This document shows, in pieces, positions 6,893-49,257 of a DNA stretch of 49,652 nucleotides (the stretch's first letter is position 1; each line of letters starts with the position of its first letter). The notes below the pieces were generated by a model. The model searched no databases. It was not told where the DNA came from and worked only from the letters and a program-made list of their open reading frames with translations. Both the position numbers and the translations under genes were made by a program. This stretch comes from a virus, in IMG/VR virus record IMGVR_UViG_3300020160_001949, positions 1-49,652 of that record; one strand, 5' to 3'.

Positions 6893-7852
6893 TTATTTAT
6901 TATTAATTACTTCATTAATAATATCTTTTAAGAGTCTTGAAAAGGACTCTTTTTTTGTTTTATAACTAACCATTTTAGGTTTGTTACCTGTACCTGATTT
7001 ACTATGGGTTTTTTCGGCCTTTCTTTTTTGTTGACAAGCAGATTTCTTTTGAGAATCTGACATTTTACCCGCAACCCCCGCAGCTCTACATTTAGGATAA
7101 CCTTTGCTTGAAGCCTCAGGTCTACCACAAGGAGGATGTTTACCATCAACTTTTCTACATATATTAACCCAAGGTCCTTTAGGTTGTTTACTTCCTTTAG
7201 GTTTCTTTTTAGTCCCAAACCATACTCCTAAATCTTCAACTACAGTATCCTCAGTTATTTCAATCCATTCTTTAACTGTATGCACATCGTGTACATCTCT
7301 ATCGTAAGTCCCATCTGAATTTTTTTCCCAAACGCCAATAACTTTTTTAATATTATTTCTCAAACTTTTATTTTTACTTTTTTTATTAGTATGATGGTTA
7401 GAGTGTACATTAAACGGAGATAGTTCACTATTTTTCCATTTTTTTAAACCTATTTCTATTGGTGCGGTATAAGGTCCTGAAGTTACAGATGTACTCGTTT
7501 CATCAATTTTACCTTTTAAAAATTGGTTAATTATACCCCCATCATCATCATTTTGAATCGGGTGGTTTTTAGAATATAATGAACTTTTTTTTGATTTAGA
7601 TTCTAATTTTTTTATAACTTTTTTAGGTTCATCCATTGTACCATCATAACTATCAACCGCCAATAAAGCGTTAAAATATTTTGAAACTGGTTTAGTAAAT
7701 GGGGTTAATTGACTATCATCAAAAAGTCTTTTACCCAATCTTAAAGGTGCGACATATGAACCTCTACTACCTCCAGAATCTGAGGTACCCTCATTAATTG
7801 GTTTTTTAAAATACCAATTTCTTACATCTTCTTCAAGTCTATCTCTATACAT
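6893..7852 (-). CDS. DUF5872-type basic protein with N-terminal phage repeat modules
   Basis: There are 319 residues. About residues 25-60 and 122-150 are related modules (GSYVAPLRLG...SQLTPF and GPYTAPIEIG...SELSPF), followed by HPIQNDDDGG, a pattern I know from phage structural-region proteins. The C-terminal 100 residues carry KGPWVNICRKVDGKHPPCGR, then CRAAGVAGKMSDSQKKSACQ, the DUF5872 signature seen in phages and giant viruses. The tail is very basic and ends in an amphipathic SRLLKDIINEVINNK. Likely a virion nucleic-acid-binding protein; function unproven. A late-type motif lies 27 nt upstream. Confidence 0.7.
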   Translation of the reverse strand: MYRDRLEEDVRNWYFKKPINEGTSDSGGSRGSYVAPLRLGKRLFDDSQLTPFTKPVSKYFNALLAVDSYDGTMDEPKKVIKKLESKSKKSSLYSKNHPIQNDDDGGIINQFLKGKIDETSTSVTSGPYTAPIEIGLKKWKNSELSPFNVHSNHHTNKKSKNKSLRNNIKKVIGVWEKNSDGTYDRDVHDVHTVKEWIEITEDTVVEDLGVWFGTKKKPKGSKQPKGPWVNICRKVDGKHPPCGRPEASSKGYPKCRAAGVAGKMSDSQKKSACQQKRKAEKTHSKSGTGNKPKMVSYKTKKESFSRLLKDIINEVINNK

Positions 7853-7894: not shown

Positions 7895-8149
7895 ATGGAA
7901 AATACTCAAGAAAACGAAAAAGAACCTATGGGTTATCTTTTTGATACTATCGCTTACTATAATATAGAAGACTTAGAAAAGTTTGTAACAAATATGACTC
8001 CTGACCAAGCTCTTTATTGTGTTATACAAGCGTCCAAGTCAGCTTATTCTAAAAATATTTTTGAATTAGAAGAATCTGAGGTTTTATCTAAAGCAATAAG
8101 AAAATTATCAATTCCTAATGTCATTGAAGATGCACCTGTTGAAGAATAG
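7895..8149 (+). CDS. Small acidic hypothetical protein upstream of methylglyoxal synthase
   Basis: This is an 84-residue acidic helical protein without Cys, signal peptide or transmembrane region. Its 3' end overlaps the start of the methylglyoxal synthase gene, so the two are translationally coupled and probably work or are regulated together. Not recognised. Confidence 0.6.
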   Translation: MENTQENEKEPMGYLFDTIAYYNIEDLEKFVTNMTPDQALYCVIQASKSAYSKNIFELEESEVLSKAIRKLSIPNVIEDAPVEE

Positions 8150-8531
8150 AATTAAAATTGCGGTGATTGCTCACGACGGTAAAAAGGCTGATATGGTTTC
8201 ATTTATTATGAAACGATTAGATTTTTTTACTTCTGAAAATGTAGAGGTTATTGCCACTGGTACTACGGGTAAACATTTAATTCACGCAGGTTTAAGTAAA
8301 GTCCACACTGTATTAAGTGGTCCTATGGGTGGAGACGCTCAAATCGCATCAATGATTACTGAAGGTAAAATTGATGCAGTTATATTTTTTATTGACCCAT
8401 TAGAAGTACATCCTCACCAAGTAGATGTTAGTATGTTATTAAGAATTTGTAATGTACACGACATACCTTTAGCAACTAACTATAAGACAGGTAAAATGGT
8501 TATAGATTGTTTGGAAAATTTTCCAAAATAA
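8130..8531 (+). CDS. mgsA: Methylglyoxal synthase
   Basis: The protein matches methylglyoxal synthase along its length: IKIAVIAHDGKKADM (phosphate/His loop), EVIATGTTGKHL (GTTG phosphate-binding loop), VLSGPMGGDAQI (catalytic Asp of GGD), VIFFIDPLEVHPHQVDV (active-site DPL and His) and LLRICNVHDIPLATN. All key residues are present. The enzyme converts dihydroxyacetone phosphate to methylglyoxal and phosphate. ATG 8130 gives 133 residues; an ATG at 8118 adds four residues and overlaps the upstream gene more. E. coli MgsA is 152 residues, mainly longer at the C-terminus. A phage copy suggests redirection of host triose phosphate. Confidence 0.93.
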   Translation: MHLLKNRIKIAVIAHDGKKADMVSFIMKRLDFFTSENVEVIATGTTGKHLIHAGLSKVHTVLSGPMGGDAQIASMITEGKIDAVIFFIDPLEVHPHQVDVSMLLRICNVHDIPLATNYKTGKMVIDCLENFPK

Positions 8532-8818: not shown

Positions 8819-10291
8819 TTATTTTTGAAATTTAATGTTTTGTCCTTTTTTATACATTTTTGTATTATAACCAGCGTCTTTTAATAGAGTATAAGAACCA
8901 TCGGGGTTAGGTGTTTTACCAAAAAACCCTCCGTTTATAAATTTCTGAACAACCTTTTCAGGAGTATCGTTATTAGTAGTATTAACTAATATTGGTTTAA
9001 TAACTATTGTTGATACGTTATTAGTTGTTGTTTCGGTTCTCGGTACTATTTTAACTTTATCCCCAGGAAAAAATTCTGTGTCTGTTGAAGCTTGTTTAAA
9101 ATATTTCAATATGATGTAGGTTCCATCAGTTTCAGTTTTTTTATTAAAAATACCTTTATCAATGTAAAATTTAATACTGGCCTCAGGGTTAGACATAGGA
9201 AATTGTTTTATATTGCCAGTTAATTTTGGTAAATTACTTGTATTTGTATCCACACTTCTTTTTTGACCGCTATCGACTCCTTTTTTCTTTAAATTACCAC
9301 AATTATCAAGTTCTAATATTGTAATATCACCAGTTTTACCTCTACCTATTGCAGGAGTACACTGATGAAATATTATAGTATTTCCTTTACTTATCTTAAC
9401 TTCAGGTCTGTCAGAATGACAATCTTCAGGTGATAAACACTGTAAACTGATAATAATATCCTTACTTTCATTACCAATAATTGATTTAGCCTTTGCATTA
9501 TCAACAACTAATTTACCACTTGTTCTATTACCTCCAACAGGAGGATTTTTGAGTCCATTATTTAAATTTGCCTTACCTATAGAAACTCCGTTTAATTTTA
9601 CGTCAAATAATGCCACATCACAATCGTGGTCACCTCTACAATTAAATGGTTTACCATCGGTACCTACAGACGGTTGAACATTTGGATTATTATACATTAC
9701 CTCAACGGTTAACCCTATAATACATTCTTCTGGTGATTTAATAGTTAAATCAACTTTAACATATCTTTCACCATCATATGCAGGATTGTTTTTATTACTC
9801 TCTCCTTTAACATATTTCGTAGTACCTAATCTAAGTTCAGATGGTTCAAATATCGGCATATTTTTTATAACTCCTTGGTTAAATAAATTTGAAAAATACT
9901 CAGTTAAGTATTTTTTCATTGTTTCCGCTCTTAATTTTGATAGTTCTAAAGGTTTTAAAGATTTTTCTTCCGAATAATCTGAGGCATTTCCTGAGGATGG
10001 GTATTTTTCTCTATCAAAATTAGTAACTTGCGATTCACTGGCAATAATTTTTACATATACTATTCTACCCTTATTATCTACTAAAAATTTTGAAGCGCCT
10101 TCTAAGTCTGATTTTAATTTTTTAATATCTTTATTAGAAAAATTAGAATACTTACCATCGTCAAAGAACGATTGTCCTGACATAGTATATTCGGTTTTAC
10201 TTAATGGTGCGGTTTGTTCTAAAATATTATATAATGATAATATCCCGATTTTTTCTTCTTCCGTTATTAATAATTTTCTTCTACAAGACAT
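8819..10291 (-). CDS. Large putative virion protein with leader, OmpA-like and C-terminal repeat regions
   Basis: There are 490 residues. The start RRKLLITEEEKIGILSLYNI then LEQ resembles the shared capsid-targeting-like leader. About residues 60-180 resemble an OmpA-like peptidoglycan-binding fold (LSKLRAETMKKYL), though divergent. The middle is beta-rich with paired Cys. The C-terminal end holds two related units of about 45 residues (IKFYIDKGIF...DGTYIILKYF and VQKFINGGFF...DGSYTLLKDA). A late-type motif lies 15 nt upstream. A peptidoglycan-contacting virion protein is a reasonable inference. Confidence 0.6.
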   Translation of the reverse strand: MSCRRKLLITEEEKIGILSLYNILEQTAPLSKTEYTMSGQSFFDDGKYSNFSNKDIKKLKSDLEGASKFLVDNKGRIVYVKIIASESQVTNFDREKYPSSGNASDYSEEKSLKPLELSKLRAETMKKYLTEYFSNLFNQGVIKNMPIFEPSELRLGTTKYVKGESNKNNPAYDGERYVKVDLTIKSPEECIIGLTVEVMYNNPNVQPSVGTDGKPFNCRGDHDCDVALFDVKLNGVSIGKANLNNGLKNPPVGGNRTSGKLVVDNAKAKSIIGNESKDIIISLQCLSPEDCHSDRPEVKISKGNTIIFHQCTPAIGRGKTGDITILELDNCGNLKKKGVDSGQKRSVDTNTSNLPKLTGNIKQFPMSNPEASIKFYIDKGIFNKKTETDGTYIILKYFKQASTDTEFFPGDKVKIVPRTETTTNNVSTIVIKPILVNTTNNDTPEKVVQKFINGGFFGKTPNPDGSYTLLKDAGYNTKMYKKGQNIKFQK

Positions 10292-18824: not shown

Positions 18825-20594
18825 TTATCTTTGAGAACCCCCGAACAACCATAAATATTTTTGATAATCATTTTTAGTCGCTTCATTATTATAATTATGG
18901 TGATTTGGTATTCCAGCTGGCATTACAGGATTAAACGCAATATTTCGACTAGATTCTTCGTTATTATTAATAGTCCAAGAACTTAACATCGCCTTTGTTT
19001 GTTCAGTAACTTTAGTTAATTGATTAAATGAATTTTCACCCACATAAGTCGCCATTGCAATTGCCATAATTAAATCATCGTGATGACCTTTTTGATGGTC
19101 AGGTCTACCATTTACGTAAATAAAAGTATTCATTTCATTGAACAATCTATTACTGTAAATTTTAAATCCGTGTCTCATTGACTCTTCAAAGGATGAAATA
19201 ATTTGAACACGTTTATTGTTAAAATTAAGACCTGGAATTTTGTCTAACGCTTTTGGGTCGTATTTCCATTTATTACCCATTTCAACACCGTCAATATACA
19301 AGTTTTTATAGTTCATTTCTTGTAATTTTCTTGCGGTTGAAACCCCCATACCACCTGTGATATCGATTACTATAAACGCATTATACATCATAGCCCATTT
19401 GTACGCAATCTCAGCAGCAACGTCTGGCGGTATTTTACCAATATATTCTAATACTTGTTCTCTCTCATCAAAATCAATAATAATCATTGATGTAAAGTCT
19501 TCAGAATCACCTCTTGATACGTCAACTCCCATAATGTATTTGTGACCTTCAACAGGTTCTTTCCACATCCATAAAGCACCACCCATCATTTTGTTGTTTG
19601 GTTCTTTTAACATATTTTGTTTAATATCCTGTAACTGTTTTGAGTCAAATACGTTATCACCTGAACCTAAGAAATTACATTCCAACTCCTGAGATACTTT
19701 ACGTTTGTCGTATTTAAGTTTTTTAACCATACTTTCAAACCAAGATGAAGTTGGTTTAAACCCATCCGAAATTTTTTGTTTTATTTCTTCAAAATCTCTA
19801 GTTCTTGGGTCGGTCTTCGATAAATCAATAATTTCTAAATCTTTATAATCTTCACGATTTAAGAAATAGTGAATTAAATCTTCAACTTTAATTAATTGTA
19901 AATCTTTTGTGTATCTTGGGTCTTTAAACCAAAACATCTCAGAGATTTTGAAATCGTTCATACCTCTTAATGCTTGGTCATAAATCTCATAATAAATTGG
20001 GTCGTATCCGTTTGGAGTTGATACCACAATAACCTTACCCCCTGTAGATAGGGACGCCATACACGCTGACCAAAAATCTCCGTCAGCCTCAATAAACGCG
20101 GCCTCGTCAAATATAAGAATTGTTGGGGTATATCCCCTTAACGCATCTCGTGATGTTGCTACGGCTTTAACTTCACATCCGTTAGTTAACTTATAATGTC
20201 TTTGTGAATTTTTTTCATTCGAGAATCCAACACCAGTCCAATTTGGCCACTGTTCTGTAAATCCTCTAATTTTGTTAGCCATCTCCATTGATGTATCTAA
20301 CTTGTTGGCAATAATTAGAATTTTTTCAGGTTTCTTTTTAGATGCAAAAACTATTTTTTTTGAAGCCCAAGCGGCGGTAACTGTAGACACACCTGCTTGA
20401 CGGTATTTTAAAGCAATATTTTCGTTATAATTTTCGTAGTCTTCAAGTAATGATACTTGGTCAGGGAATAATTCTAATGGTACATACTGTGACACAGTAT
20501 TATCGTAAGTTTGTAGATAAGTTTTAAGTGCGTAAGGAGTATTCTTTACGCACTTAGTATATTCTAATATTAATTGTTCTTTTGTGAATGACAT
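18825..20594 (-). CDS. terL: Terminase large subunit (T4 gp17-like)
   Basis: There are 589 residues. The ATPase domain has KYRQAGVSTVTAAWASKK (Walker A-like, residues 63-80), TILIFDEAAF (Walker B with D163-E164) and VSTPNG (motif III). The nuclease domain has IMGVDVSRGDSEDFTSMIII (catalytic Asp near 358) and KGHHDDLIMAIAMA near the C-terminus. The enzyme pumps and cuts DNA at the portal. Its length is close to gp17 (610). A small terminase subunit is not obvious nearby. The stop is followed within 40 nt by the portal ATG. Confidence 0.95.
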   Translation of the reverse strand: MSFTKEQLILEYTKCVKNTPYALKTYLQTYDNTVSQYVPLELFPDQVSLLEDYENYNENIALKYRQAGVSTVTAAWASKKIVFASKKKPEKILIIANKLDTSMEMANKIRGFTEQWPNWTGVGFSNEKNSQRHYKLTNGCEVKAVATSRDALRGYTPTILIFDEAAFIEADGDFWSACMASLSTGGKVIVVSTPNGYDPIYYEIYDQALRGMNDFKISEMFWFKDPRYTKDLQLIKVEDLIHYFLNREDYKDLEIIDLSKTDPRTRDFEEIKQKISDGFKPTSSWFESMVKKLKYDKRKVSQELECNFLGSGDNVFDSKQLQDIKQNMLKEPNNKMMGGALWMWKEPVEGHKYIMGVDVSRGDSEDFTSMIIIDFDEREQVLEYIGKIPPDVAAEIAYKWAMMYNAFIVIDITGGMGVSTARKLQEMNYKNLYIDGVEMGNKWKYDPKALDKIPGLNFNNKRVQIISSFEESMRHGFKIYSNRLFNEMNTFIYVNGRPDHQKGHHDDLIMAIAMATYVGENSFNQLTKVTEQTKAMLSSWTINNNEESSRNIAFNPVMPAGIPNHHNYNNEATKNDYQKYLWLFGGSQR

Positions 20595-28526: not shown

Positions 28527-29357
28527 TTACCAGTATTTGAATGTCACAGATTTCTGAGGACTATGATGATATTTGTTATAACCTAACAAATCTATCATTT
28601 TCTTACCCATTTCAATCCCATTAAAAGTATCTTCCACAACAACATATTCATTTTTAGTGTGGTAGTTATAATATCCTATTGAAAAGTTTATACAAGAAAA
28701 ATCAAATTTAGTTTTAAGGGCATAAACATCGGTATATGGGTGTATCATATACTGTCTTTTAGGGTTCATATTTTCACTGATGACTTTATCACATTTTTCA
28801 AAAAATTCACTATCTCTACTGAATAGTTTTGCTCCAAAACAAGTTTCGGTAATCATCCAACTTTCAGGAGCGTCAAACTGTATGGCGTATCCCACATTTG
28901 TAAAAAAACTTGGGTCTGCATATCTTGAGCCGTGACAACCAGTTTCTTCTGAAACAAAAAACGCTGCTTTTAAATTAGGTAATTCTTCGAGTAATTCAAG
29001 ACAAGCGAAAACTCCACATTTGTCATCACCACCAATACCTGTAGGGTTTCCTTGGTCGTTATAAGCTTTTAAAGATAATTTTAATTCTCCATCGGTATTT
29101 GGTAACATTTCTTCCCTAACATTAATACTATCTAACTTATGTACAGTATCGGTATGTGAAACAACGCAAGGAAACATAAAATCTTCAGAGATTTCACCAC
29201 TTTGTTTAGTGGCGTAAACATTCAAATGTTCGTCAACGTAATATTCGATATTTTTACTTTTTAACCAATCAACTATGAATTGGACCATTTCCTCTTCTTG
29301 GTAAGTATAAGTAGGGACCGATAACACCTCTTTGAGTAATTGCAAATTTCTTGCCAT
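28527..29357 (-). CDS. M20/M28-type zinc aminopeptidase
   Basis: The 276 residues show the di-zinc peptidase pattern: CVVSHTDTVH (first metal His and Asp), GIGGDDKCGVFACLELLEEL (bridging Asp), AFFVSEETGCHGSRYADPSF (catalytic Glu pair), AIQFDAPES (metal Asp) and YYNYHTKNEYVVVEDT (final His). This is close to peptidase T and M42/M20 enzymes that trim short peptides in the cytosol. It has no signal peptide. It is convergent with the ClpC-like gene, which suggests peptide recycling after Clp proteolysis. A -7 box TATATTTG lies 20 nt upstream. Confidence 0.85.
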   Translation of the reverse strand: MARNLQLLKEVLSVPTYTYQEEEMVQFIVDWLKSKNIEYYVDEHLNVYATKQSGEISEDFMFPCVVSHTDTVHKLDSINVREEMLPNTDGELKLSLKAYNDQGNPTGIGGDDKCGVFACLELLEELPNLKAAFFVSEETGCHGSRYADPSFFTNVGYAIQFDAPESWMITETCFGAKLFSRDSEFFEKCDKVISENMNPKRQYMIHPYTDVYALKTKFDFSCINFSIGYYNYHTKNEYVVVEDTFNGIEMGKKMIDLLGYNKYHHSPQKSVTFKYW

Positions 29358-34126: not shown

Positions 34127-35209
34127 TTAAAGTTTTTCAAACTTAGGTTTGAGGTATTTCCATATAATATGGTCATATGGTTTTCTATCCCACATTGCAA
34201 AACATAGTGATTTAACTTTAGGATGTACTTTATTAAGTTCTAAATGTTCTGCAAATTCTTTCTTAGTAGGTTCAACTTCTCTATCACCATACTTTCCATA
34301 TCGGAAATAGTCGTGTAGTTTTCCCGCATACTCAGAATAACGATAATGGTTATAATTTAAAGTTGAAACGTACTGTTTTACTTTTTTATAGAATTCATCA
34401 GGAACGTCCTTCAAATAATCCTCCATTTTACCTCCAGTACTTAAAACCTCCCAAACACCAGTAGTAGATAGGTTAGTCATTATTTTATGAAGACGAAGAT
34501 ATTCTTCACCTTTTATCTTCATTCTATCTCCATTAGAGAATCTAACCACAAACCCTTCTTTATTATCTGCAATTGCGTGTTTTAAGTAAGTGTAGTCAGA
34601 TATACCATCATATTTTCTAACGATATTAAACCCTAAGTTGTTTAAAAGGTTTTTGAACCTAACATCTACATTATTACCTGAGTGTATGTTAACCTCGTAA
34701 CCATCTTTAGTGTGTATCATTCCTAATAATACCAAATCTTCAAAATCGTAAGAACAAACTATTCTATTCTCAGGATAGATTATTTCAAACAAATAAGTAT
34801 AGTCAGGGTTTAATCTCTGATATTCATATTTTTGAAGTAACTCAGTACCTTTAACCGATTGGTCAGAAGTAAAAGAACCACGAGTCGCAAGAACCCACTC
34901 ACCTTTGTAGTTGAATAAGATTCCCAAAGAACCGTCCATTTTTTCATACACATCAAAATCCTCAGTTGGAGTGTGTTGGTTTTCTTCTATGTTGAAGAAT
35001 TTCTTAAATGGTCTTGCAACAACATTACCCTCATTGTCAGTAACCAATCCACGGCATTGTTTGGTAACATCATCCCAAAATTTATATTGGTTATTACCTT
35101 CACCGTATTGAACCTTTGGAGTATAGTTCCATATAGTCAAAGGAAGGGTAGGATGCACTTGTTTTTGCACCAACTCTTTCTCGTAATATTTGTTCAATTG
35201 CTCTAACAT
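34127..35209 (-). CDS. RNA ligase, T4 Rnl1 family
   Basis: The 360 residues carry nucleotidyltransferase motifs of the Rnl1 clade: motif I VYEKMDGSLG with adenylated Lys90; motif III around YTYLFEIIYPENRIV (138-152); motif IV KEGFVVRF (217-224); motif V RMKIKGEEYLRLH (Lys231/Lys233). The C-terminal domain is helical as in Rnl1. The enzyme seals 3'-OH/5'-P RNA ends with ATP, classically repairing tRNAs nicked by host anticodon nucleases. A consensus host-like promoter sits only 4 nt upstream of the ATG. The kinase/phosphatase partner of T4 (Pnkp) is not in view. Confidence 0.92.
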   Translation of the reverse strand: MLEQLNKYYEKELVQKQVHPTLPLTIWNYTPKVQYGEGNNQYKFWDDVTKQCRGLVTDNEGNVVARPFKKFFNIEENQHTPTEDFDVYEKMDGSLGILFNYKGEWVLATRGSFTSDQSVKGTELLQKYEYQRLNPDYTYLFEIIYPENRIVCSYDFEDLVLLGMIHTKDGYEVNIHSGNNVDVRFKNLLNNLGFNIVRKYDGISDYTYLKHAIADNKEGFVVRFSNGDRMKIKGEEYLRLHKIMTNLSTTGVWEVLSTGGKMEDYLKDVPDEFYKKVKQYVSTLNYNHYRYSEYAGKLHDYFRYGKYGDREVEPTKKEFAEHLELNKVHPKVKSLCFAMWDRKPYDHIIWKYLKPKFEKL

Positions 35210-37535: not shown

Positions 37536-37786
37536 TATTTATCAAATTGTCCCCACCAAGTAGGAATGTTAACTAATATTGCAACTTCAACAATAACCAT
37601 TAAAACACGACCAAAAGTTGTTGTAAATGCCCACCAATTATACGGATTCCAATCCCAAGCAATAAAACTACCTAAAAGATAAAATATCCCGTTAGAAATA
37701 ACTAACGGGAGTATTATCATCCACATAACATTTAAAATCGCCAATAACTTATATCTTAATTTATCCATATTATACTGTATGTTCAA
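37535..37786 (-). CDS. Small two-span membrane protein, 83 aa
   Basis: Residues 13-38 and 58-76 are hydrophobic spans with Trp-rich boundaries (WDWNPYNWWAFTT between them). Positive charges before the first span suggest the N-terminus is inside. It may be an antiholin, exclusion or transport protein; none can be fixed. It overlaps the cREC gene by 17 nt and the next gene by 1 nt. Confidence 0.6.
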   Translation of the reverse strand: MNIQYNMDKLRYKLLAILNVMWMIILPLVISNGIFYLLGSFIAWDWNPYNWWAFTTTFGRVLMVIVEVAILVNIPTWWGQFDK

Positions 37787-38180
37787 TTTGTACTCTTACA
37801 CAATTTTGAGGTAAACGATTGATGTGACGGTAATTGTTGATGTATCCCATCATATTTGCACTACCGATAGCATTGGCTGAGTGAATTACAACATCAACAA
37901 CAGGTTGTCCATCCATCCATTGGTCAACTAACCATTTAGTACAATCCATACCTGTTTTTTCAGTAATGTTATCGTAATTCAATTTGTAATTTTGATAAAC
38001 ATTTTTATGCCATTCCGCCATTGCAGTATCACCTAAATCGTGGTCCAAAGAAATTAAACTAATATTTTCTAATCCGATTTCAGTTACTTTTTCTACAAAT
38101 TCTTCGTAAGAACGAACAATGACCCATTGGTCTTTTTCAATAGGAGTTCTTACATCATCCAAATATATTCTTTGTTTCAT
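37770..38180 (-). CDS. Cyclic-phosphate-processing receiver (cREC) domain protein
   Basis: Start at ATG 38180 (MKQRIYLDDVRTPIEKDQW); an ATG at 38210 is possible but lies 4 nt from a TATTTTTG box. The 136 residues match the cREC family: YLDDVRTP (acidic pocket), ISLISLDHDLGD, GMDCTKWLVDQW, VDVVIHSANAIGSANMMGYI. The family is an atypical receiver predicted to act on 2',3'-cyclic phosphates in RNA repair, by established comparative genomics. Here it is in an operon with CYTH and phosphoesterase genes. Confidence 0.85.
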   Translation of the reverse strand: MKQRIYLDDVRTPIEKDQWVIVRSYEEFVEKVTEIGLENISLISLDHDLGDTAMAEWHKNVYQNYKLNYDNITEKTGMDCTKWLVDQWMDGQPVVDVVIHSANAIGSANMMGYINNYRHINRLPQNCVRVQIEHTV

Positions 38181-38226
38181 ACTATAATTTTTTTTACTAA
38201 TTCTTTTCATTATACAAAAATACTAA

Positions 38227-38727
38227 TTAACTACCAACTCTCCAAGCTGAGTTTATAATCTTACGAGTTTTTTTAGAATCCTCTAAGTTACCCATAACAA
38301 CACCATCCTTTATTGTAAAGGCGTGACTTCTAACACAGATGACAAAAGTACCAATAGGGTATTTTTTAATAAAAGTACCCACGGTCATTTGTCGATTAGT
38401 TTTTTGACCCTTAACCTTAACTTCATAATCCAAAGTATAAAAAGAACCTGAAGTATTTGGTTTTCCAACGGGTTTGCAAGTTTTACGACCGATACGAGTA
38501 CGTTCTCTTGAAATTTTATTCATACCCCCAATAAAGTTGTAGGTTCCTTGTCGGTCTTTACGGAAAAAAGTTTCTTTAATGAATGTATGAGCCCTATCGT
38601 ATTCAATTCCAAATGCCGACGCAATTGCTCGAACAACACAATCGTTAGTTTCACTTTTAGCGATTATAGATTCAGAATATCCTTTAATCGCTTCAGATGT
38701 ATTACAATAAGGGAGTTGATTTTTCAT
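38227..38727 (-). CDS. Papain-like/C39-like Cys-His protein, first gene of RNA-repair operon
   Basis: The 166 residues show a papain-like pair: NDCVVRAIASAFG with Cys30 at a helix start, and GTFVICVRSHAFTIKDG with the partner His in the following strand, as in C39 and related thiol hydrolases. The central part is basic (KISRERTRIGRKTCKPVGKP). It might be a peptidase, deamidase or transglutaminase-like modifier; activity is not provable here. It leads an operon of nine tightly packed genes from a consensus promoter. Confidence 0.65.
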   Translation of the reverse strand: MKNQLPYCNTSEAIKGYSESIIAKSETNDCVVRAIASAFGIEYDRAHTFIKETFFRKDRQGTYNFIGGMNKISRERTRIGRKTCKPVGKPNTSGSFYTLDYEVKVKGQKTNRQMTVGTFIKKYPIGTFVICVRSHAFTIKDGVVMGNLEDSKKTRKIINSAWRVGS

Positions 38728-38763: not shown

Positions 38764-40011
38764 TTAAATAATCCAGGAATTAACTTCAGATATTGATTTA
38801 ACACATATTTTTTCTAAGGATAATACAACCTCATCAATATTTTCAATATCAACACCACCAAGAGACATTCTAAACCAACCTGCGTTTTTATTAGACCCAA
38901 AATATTCGAATGGTACCAACCCAACACCACAATGTTTAATTAAAAATTGTACATAGTTTTCAACGTTACCAAAAAATTGAGATTCTCCTAAATAAATCGA
39001 AATATAGATACCCCCTTCAGGTTTTTGATAATCAATTCTAAACCTTCTTTGTTTTAACTCTTCAATTTTTTCACAGATTATATTTGATATTTCAGAATAC
39101 TGTTTCACTTTATTAGAAACAAATTCATTCATTGAATTATAATCATTTAGATACTTTGCAACTGCCGTTTGTTCAGGTTTAGGAGACCAAGCTCCGATGT
39201 GAGAGAATATTTCGGTCATTTTAGAAATGATTGATTTAGGACCAAAAACCCAACCAACTCTAACACCTGTGGCACATAAGGATTTAGATATTCCATCAAC
39301 ACAAATTAAATAATCACGTATTTCAGGACAAACTTCTAATGGATGAGTAAATAAACCATCAGAAACTAAGTCAGAATATATTTGGTCAAAAAACAAATAT
39401 GTTTTTTTAGATTTTTCTTTATTAACCTCAACAATCTCATCACAGATTTGTTTTAGTGTTACTTTATCTATAACACGACCTGTAGGATTTTGTGGCGAAC
39501 ATAAACAAAGTAATCTTGTATTGTGTAGTTTACCTTTAACATCTTCAAAAGTTGGGAAAAACGAGTTTTCAGGTTTACATTCTATAGGGATTTTTATTGC
39601 TCCGTGTAAAAAAGAATAATGATTGTTATTCCAAGATGGTACAGGGTACATTACAGAATCGTCTGAATCAACAATAGTTTTAAATATTGTGTAAATTAAT
39701 GGTCTAACGCCACACCCGATTAAAATTTCGTCTTCAGAATAACTAATCCCTCTTTTTTTATTAAGATATTCACTAACAGATTTTCTCAAATCCAATTCAC
39801 CTGGAGACATTGGATAATTTGTTAAATCATTTTCGTATGACTCAACAATATACTCTTTAAGTTTTTTTGGAATTGGATTTATTTTAGGGTTAAAATCACC
39901 AATACTGAAGTTTTGTACTGGTTTTGTTTTTGATACCTCTTTAATTTGTTGTGAAATTTTAATAATTTCAGAACCAACAATATTGTTTCCTACGAATGAT
40001 AAATTTTGCAT
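38764..40011 (-). CDS. PLP-dependent class I/II aminotransferase
   Basis: The 415 residues include all fold-type I landmarks: YPMSPGELDLRKSVSEYLN, LCSPQNPTGR (Asn175), YLFFDQIYSDL (Asp209, Tyr212), VDGISKSLCATGVRVGWVFG (PLP-binding Lys243) and WFRMSLGG (substrate carboxylate Arg381). It is full length and looks active. It resembles aspartate/aromatic aminotransferases; the amino donor cannot be told from sequence. An aminotransferase is unusual in a phage; it could replenish amino acids or build a modified nucleobase or surface compound. It lies directly after the tRNA-Ser gene, at the end of the tRNA array. Confidence 0.92.
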   Translation of the reverse strand: MQNLSFVGNNIVGSEIIKISQQIKEVSKTKPVQNFSIGDFNPKINPIPKKLKEYIVESYENDLTNYPMSPGELDLRKSVSEYLNKKRGISYSEDEILIGCGVRPLIYTIFKTIVDSDDSVMYPVPSWNNNHYSFLHGAIKIPIECKPENSFFPTFEDVKGKLHNTRLLCLCSPQNPTGRVIDKVTLKQICDEIVEVNKEKSKKTYLFFDQIYSDLVSDGLFTHPLEVCPEIRDYLICVDGISKSLCATGVRVGWVFGPKSIISKMTEIFSHIGAWSPKPEQTAVAKYLNDYNSMNEFVSNKVKQYSEISNIICEKIEELKQRRFRIDYQKPEGGIYISIYLGESQFFGNVENYVQFLIKHCGVGLVPFEYFGSNKNAGWFRMSLGGVDIENIDEVVLSLEKICVKSISEVNSWII

Positions 40012-49179: not shown

Positions 49180-49182
49180 TAG

Positions 49183-49257
49183 TTGCGGGGGCGGGATTCG
49201 AACCCACGTAGTTTGGCTTATGAGACCAAGCTGGAACCAACTCCAGTCCACCCCGCG
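49183..49257 (-). tRNA. tRNA-Met(CAT) with initiator C1-A72 mismatch
   Basis: CGCGGGG pairs with CCCCGC, leaving C1 opposite A72, the bacterial initiator mark. Anticodon loop CTCATAA. D-arm spacing is unusual (TGGA then CTGG/CCAG), and the anticodon stem ends GGT/GCC instead of GGG/CCC. Confidence 0.82.

Follow-up and report, generated by a model that had tools for sequence, protein, structure and literature searches.

The methylglyoxal bypass has an established overflow role in bacteria, and cyanophages carry auxiliary genes, talC and cp12, that act on carbon flux. Bacterial methylglyoxal synthase (MgsA, EC 4.2.3.3) is described by the families NF003559 and TIGR00160 and by structures 6f2c, 8u2v and 1b93, and viral mgsA is already known in passing: a Lake Baikal study names it in a single line among viral auxiliary metabolic genes, on a scaffold of 120 kb that is akin to Caulobacter phage Cr30 and accounted for as much as 8.8% of the reads of a sample (PMC8066274), and another single-line mention reports viral mgsA from a deep-sea brine pool (PMC11252502). 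In the passages concerned, both mentions come without active-site, tree, locus or selection analysis. They were the only two that we found in the open-access literature, which also yielded no study of phage MgsA function.

Here we describe an mgsA gene in a 49.7-kb virus record (IMG/VR IMGVR_UViG_3300020160_001949), which was analysed over its whole length and is called the window below. Compared with the bacterial enzymes, its product has the same fold, the short-form length class and all active-site residues, but it is virus-encoded, lacks the C-terminal extension of E. coli MgsA and belongs to a set of phage copies in which R29 and F33 are fixed, Y118 is nearly so and position 97 is mostly Q. 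Its nearest cellular relatives in trees are the short-type (~125 aa) MgsA of Bacteroidota (e.g., L134), from which the viral copies differ in forming their own clade with phage-specific residues. The likeness to talC and cp12 lies in the redirection of host central carbon that we propose, whereas the enzyme and the hosts are different and there is no homology.

A T4-like phage and its likely host

Genes for the major head protein, portal and terminase, all of T4 type, lie on one contig and show the window to be a T4-like phage. That contig is the one that bears mgsA, and the locus recurs in independent contigs, as befits a phage genome rather than contamination. The genes that define the locus and its phage context are as follows.

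6893 to 7852, minus strand: divergent 319-aa gene with a phrog_23735-like segment, a syntenic marker of the locus
7895 to 8149, plus strand: p84, a small, mostly helical protein of 84 aa and no known family, overlapping the mgsA start by 20 nt
8130 to 8531, plus strand: mgsA, methylglyoxal synthase, 133 aa, identified by NF003559, PDB MgsA chains and Foldseek, with the start taken from relatives L005 and L006
10968 to 12800, minus strand: major head protein (phrog_138), E 3.5e-66, marking the phage context
16953 to 18788, minus strand: portal protein (phrog_213), E 1.1e-66
18825 to 20594, minus strand: terminase large subunit (phrog_2)

A Clp-type ATPase and a T4-type RNA ligase are also encoded, along with 24 tRNA genes that all lie on the minus strand between 40053 and 49514; the anticodon of the one at 49182-49257 is ambiguous.

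The host is likely a member of the Bacteroidota, because the closest cultured match of the terminase is Flavobacterium phage vB_FspM_immuto (27.7% identity) and because TAnnTTTG, which we take to be the Bacteroidota-type -7 promoter word, is moderately enriched before window genes (9 genes versus 3.5 expected). Sites of this word belong to 26450 (plus), 28530-29357 (minus), 34130-35209 (minus), 37773-38210 (minus), 38230-38727 (minus) and 8587 (plus); in several cases the word stands 12 nt ahead of the start codon, which hints at this host and at very short leaders.

A second word, TATTTAT on the sense strand, occurs within 60 nt upstream of 15 of the 57 window ORFs versus 1.4 expected, with many of these in the structural-gene region (e.g., the minus-strand ORFs with ends at 10291, 10895, 14306, 15465, 25213 and 32625). 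It is the reverse complement of the T4 late TATAAATA word and is a candidate late promoter. We considered a late promoter of T4 type (TATAAATA) ahead of p84 and rejected it: the window contains the word 15 times versus 11.5 expected, which is no enrichment, and its complement at this place is better explained as belonging to the minus-strand gene that diverges here.

Identity and active site of the enzyme

The stretch 8130-8531 is a real, full-length MgsA carried by the phage, which confirms the methylglyoxal synthase named in the earlier note and does so beyond the level of an MGS-like domain. The protein scored 152.2 bits against the NCBIfam MgsA equivalog NF003559 (cut-off 84, E=7.6e-45), fell slightly below the TIGR00160 cut-off (143.4 versus 146.9 bits), matched Pfam MGS at 3e-17, and found PDB MgsA chains at E 1e-31 to 4e-25 (best E 1.2e-31). 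An AlphaFold model built with 21 phage homologues (pLDDT 84, pTM 0.80) has the MGS fold, and its best Foldseek matches were all solved MgsA structures, led by B. subtilis MgsA 6f2c (TM 0.83, E 5e-13) within a range for the B. subtilis, Borrelia, Thermus and E. coli enzymes of TM ~0.8 and E 5e-13 to 2e-9; the fold family that ranked next, represented by carbamoyl-phosphate synthetase with its MGS-like domain, was far weaker at E 1e-5. Against PHROGs v4 the protein had no significant family match, so that family-based viral annotation can overlook MgsA.

The start codon deserves a word, since the mechanical ORF (table 11) begins at an ATG at 8118 and runs to a stop codon that ends at 8531. Neither of the relatives L005 and L006 has an ATG at the position equivalent to 8118, and L006 has a stop codon just upstream, whereas the ATG matching 8130 is common to the window and both relatives; we therefore prefer 8130, the start that had been claimed for this ORF.

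For the active site, we placed the E. coli numbering (H19, D20, K23, T45, T47, T48, S65, D71, D91, P92, H98, D101) on the phage protein with the help of the PDB matches.

8172 to 8186, plus strand: HDGKK loop, residues 15-19 (E. coli H19, D20, K23); H, D and the second K do not vary among the 53 distinct phage homologues
8256 to 8270, plus strand: TGTTG phosphate-binding loop, residues 43-47 (E. coli T45, T47, T48); threonines invariant
8316 to 8336, plus strand: SGPMGGD, residues 63-69, with the catalytic Asp corresponding to E. coli D71; S, G, P, G, G and D in 87/87 full-length copies
8394 to 8426, plus strand: DPLEVHPHQVD, residues 89-99 (Asp89 = D91, His96 = H98, Asp99 = D101); D89, P90, H96 and D99 invariant

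The catalytic residues Asp71, Asp91, His98 and Asp101 and the phosphate-loop residues T45, T47, T48 and S65 thus all have their counterparts, and the whole set of twelve is invariant in 53/53 distinct phage sequences. All the active-site motifs are present, as the earlier note had it, and they are kept among the full-length phage homologues, with HDxxK, TGTT and SGPxGGD carried by 87/87 and DP[LM]xxHPHQVD by 72/87. Phage-specific features accompany them: R29 and F33 are fixed, Y118 nearly and H52 mostly, and Q97 replaces the bacterial E/D in 40 of the 53 distinct sequences. The window MgsA is very probably catalytically active, and the reaction expected from its family membership is the conversion of DHAP to methylglyoxal and phosphate.

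The p84 slot, ancestry and selection

In the window lineage, mgsA sits between p84 and varied genes upstream of the major head gene. Thirteen p84 homologues lie beside mgsA (alignment A2), and none was found beside mgsA in other phage groups; the predicted p84 model (pLDDT 81.5) matched uncharacterised phage (Caudovirales) proteins in BFVD. Ten relatives with the same gene block (L250-L253, L255-L260) keep p84, and mgsA was not found anywhere on their whole contigs. Base-level comparison of L018 and L019 with L251, L253, L258 and L260 revealed that the p84 ends align at the same stop codon, and that where mgsA is present an ATG lies inside the p84 end, whereas contigs without it have ACG there and pass straight on to the next gene. 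On the terminase tree, the presence and absence of mgsA requires at least 3 changes.

These observations make p84 a core gene of the window phage lineage, beside the head region, and mgsA an accessory gene whose slot is constant, immediately behind the p84 stop codon, and which has been repeatedly gained or lost. The coupling of mgsA to an 84-residue gene, proposed in the earlier note, accordingly holds as a matter of position, with a real p84 ORF, a 20-nt overlap and translation of mgsA that is probably coupled to that of p84, but not as a matter of function: because p84 is kept whether the slot is occupied or empty, it is not a partner, and a functional pairing was rejected by this presence/absence test.

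Elsewhere in the viral clade the neighbourhoods of mgsA differ, the gene lying near a tRNA-like sequence (L036, L038) or thymidylate synthase. In L036 and L038 a tRNA-like 3' end stands just before mgsA (about 7930-8000), which suggests tRNA-adjacent insertion in another phage group. As for the divergent 319-aa protein, its segment KKKPKGSxQPKGPWVNICR (phrog_23735) is variably present in otherwise similar relatives (window, L009, L014, L016, L090), and we read it as a mobile domain.

Close relatives of the window MgsA were found in 56 viral contigs, a profile from phage copies matched 169 viral contigs, and a broader profile revealed that at least 398 IMG/VR contigs encode MgsA, on contigs of up to 311 kb. 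Among GenBank phage records there were 22 MgsA matches, all below 48% identity. Three of these, OR848172, MT835478 and MT835555 (L262, L261, L263), were considered as cultured relatives and rejected: they are UNVERIFIED records with the gene orders dapB-mgsA-cca, ftsW-mgsA with a PBP nearby, and ftsW-mgsA, and because all three inspected loci are bacterial sequence none was counted. Such bacterial-looking 'phage' records can mislead searches for phage mgsA.

Scanning genome contigs with phage peptides yielded no more than 5 matches, all bacterial and distant. Our cellular sample was 296 genomes from the phylum of a Bacteroidetes MAG, of which 139 encode MgsA, in two types, long (~150 aa) and short (~125 aa), and the phage profile fits the short type best. 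In a tree of 99 rows, all 53 phage sequences grouped in one clade (98/96) whose neighbour was the short type, while the long type branched far away; in an enlarged tree, 61 of the 64 viral rows formed one clade (98/91) adjoining short-type Bacteroidota MgsA. The remaining three (L277, L269, L271) fell at the poorly supported base of the enlarged tree, so that a single origin for every viral MgsA is not fully upheld. Deep branching in these trees is uncertain, as they rest on ~133 columns. The source of viral mgsA was likely an ordinary chromosomal gene, since the short-type gene L134 adjoins phosphofructokinase on a 1.05-Mb contig.

Viral mgsA is under strong purifying selection, with a median dN/dS of 0.10 over the 78 pairs with usable dS. 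The window and its closest relative (L001) differ by one residue (dS 0.61, dN 0.003), and in the window's closest relative group mgsA is 99% identical versus 93% for terminase. Taken with the trees, this marks a host-derived gene whose function has been kept by selection. The earlier note had called the gene an unusual auxiliary function: selection and the phage locus bear out the auxiliary part, but it is less unusual than that wording implied, given at least 398 viral contigs and the brief published mentions (PMC8066274, PMC11252502).

Possible roles during infection

The products of MgsA are a potent electrophile and free phosphate, and few metabolic enzymes combine both. The explanation that we favour, at a probability of roughly 55%, is that the window carries an active MgsA of ancient Bacteroidota derivation, which serves as a phage accessory gene for methylglyoxal bypass and phosphate release. 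The gene would have been acquired long ago from a short-type chromosomal gene of Bacteroidota, and since then passed down and swapped between large T4-like and jumbo phages as cargo of the moron (accessory) type. During infection, the enzyme would drain DHAP and so open a methylglyoxal bypass of lower glycolysis, which would free the phosphate held in triose phosphates and keep upper-pathway carbon moving once the host can no longer balance glycolysis, with host glyoxalases and reductases removing the methylglyoxal. Taken by itself, the phosphate and bypass role is a plausible proposal to which we give somewhat less than even odds; we judge it the most likely of the roles, with overflow relief second and a toxin third.

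Phosphate inhibits E. coli MgsA at 0.3-0.5 mM, and under phosphate limitation the enzyme has been proposed to be of use by liberating phosphate from DHAP (PMC11850910); the reaction and this control make the phosphate release suggested in the earlier note a reasonable proposal. Because the cellular enzyme is inhibited by phosphate, the phage MgsA would act mainly under phosphate shortage. The phage protein terminates ~24 residues short of the E. coli C-terminus. It retains counterparts of D20, P92, R107 and V111, which we take to be the E. coli residues tied to phosphate control, and it is missing the C-terminal region with R150, presumably tied to allostery, so that its phosphate response is not to be assumed. 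With this allosteric region missing, we can venture, as a speculation that is on balance doubtful, that a widespread, mostly single-origin viral MgsA lets large Bacteroidota phages shift infected cells to the methylglyoxal bypass and so mobilise triose-phosphate Pi, possibly with a relaxed phosphate brake; if true, such phages would scavenge phosphate from internal sugar phosphates instead of by uptake.

The gene phoH is present in 17/26 mgsA-bearing contigs, which is weak evidence because phoH is common in large aquatic phages. Two points count against the phosphate role: the absence of mgsA from close relatives means that it is dispensable, and its place among head genes means that, if it is expressed late, its phosphate would reach DNA synthesis late.

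The alternative that survives best, though we consider it rather unlikely, is a carbon overflow valve, in which infection stalls lower glycolysis and MgsA relieves the resulting sugar-phosphate build-up and redox imbalance (towards lactate/propanediol), the phosphate being incidental. The known bypass role in bacteria and the phosphofructokinase beside the nearest cellular type of the gene speak for such a valve, but partner enzymes of the downstream route were not found in the contigs searched.

Less probable still is a weapon or takeover function, the other idea of the earlier note, in which methylglyoxal damages host macromolecules, stops host growth or excludes competing phages. The same active enzyme is predicted here, and a search of 26 mgsA-bearing phage contigs for glyoxalase (PF00903), DJ-1/PfpI (PF01965) and aldo-keto reductase (PF00248) detected none of them, so that the phage itself would not be removing methylglyoxal. 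This absence fits a metabolic or a weapon role alike, however, and many contigs are incomplete fragments, which makes missing detoxification genes weak evidence; moreover, methylglyoxal would also attack phage DNA and proteins, cheaper killing routes are open to a lytic phage, and the many host-phylum genomes that own mgsA presumably tolerate the compound. A repurposed MGS fold, that is, a non-catalytic ligand-binding or regulatory protein comparable to the MGS-like domains of carbamoyl-phosphate synthetase or PurH, might account for the phage-specific residues and the frequent Q97, but is highly improbable given catalytic Asp/His and phosphate-loop residues that are invariant in every phage sequence and structural matches that favour true MgsA so far above carbamoyl-phosphate synthetase.

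Because hundreds of viral contigs keep mgsA, whether phages manipulate the methylglyoxal bypass can be tested directly, and sister phages that naturally have or lack mgsA provide matched pairs for comparison. The window also encodes a class I/II aminotransferase (38767-40011, minus strand) and an M20/M42-like peptidase (28530-29357, minus strand), which are possible further metabolic cargo.
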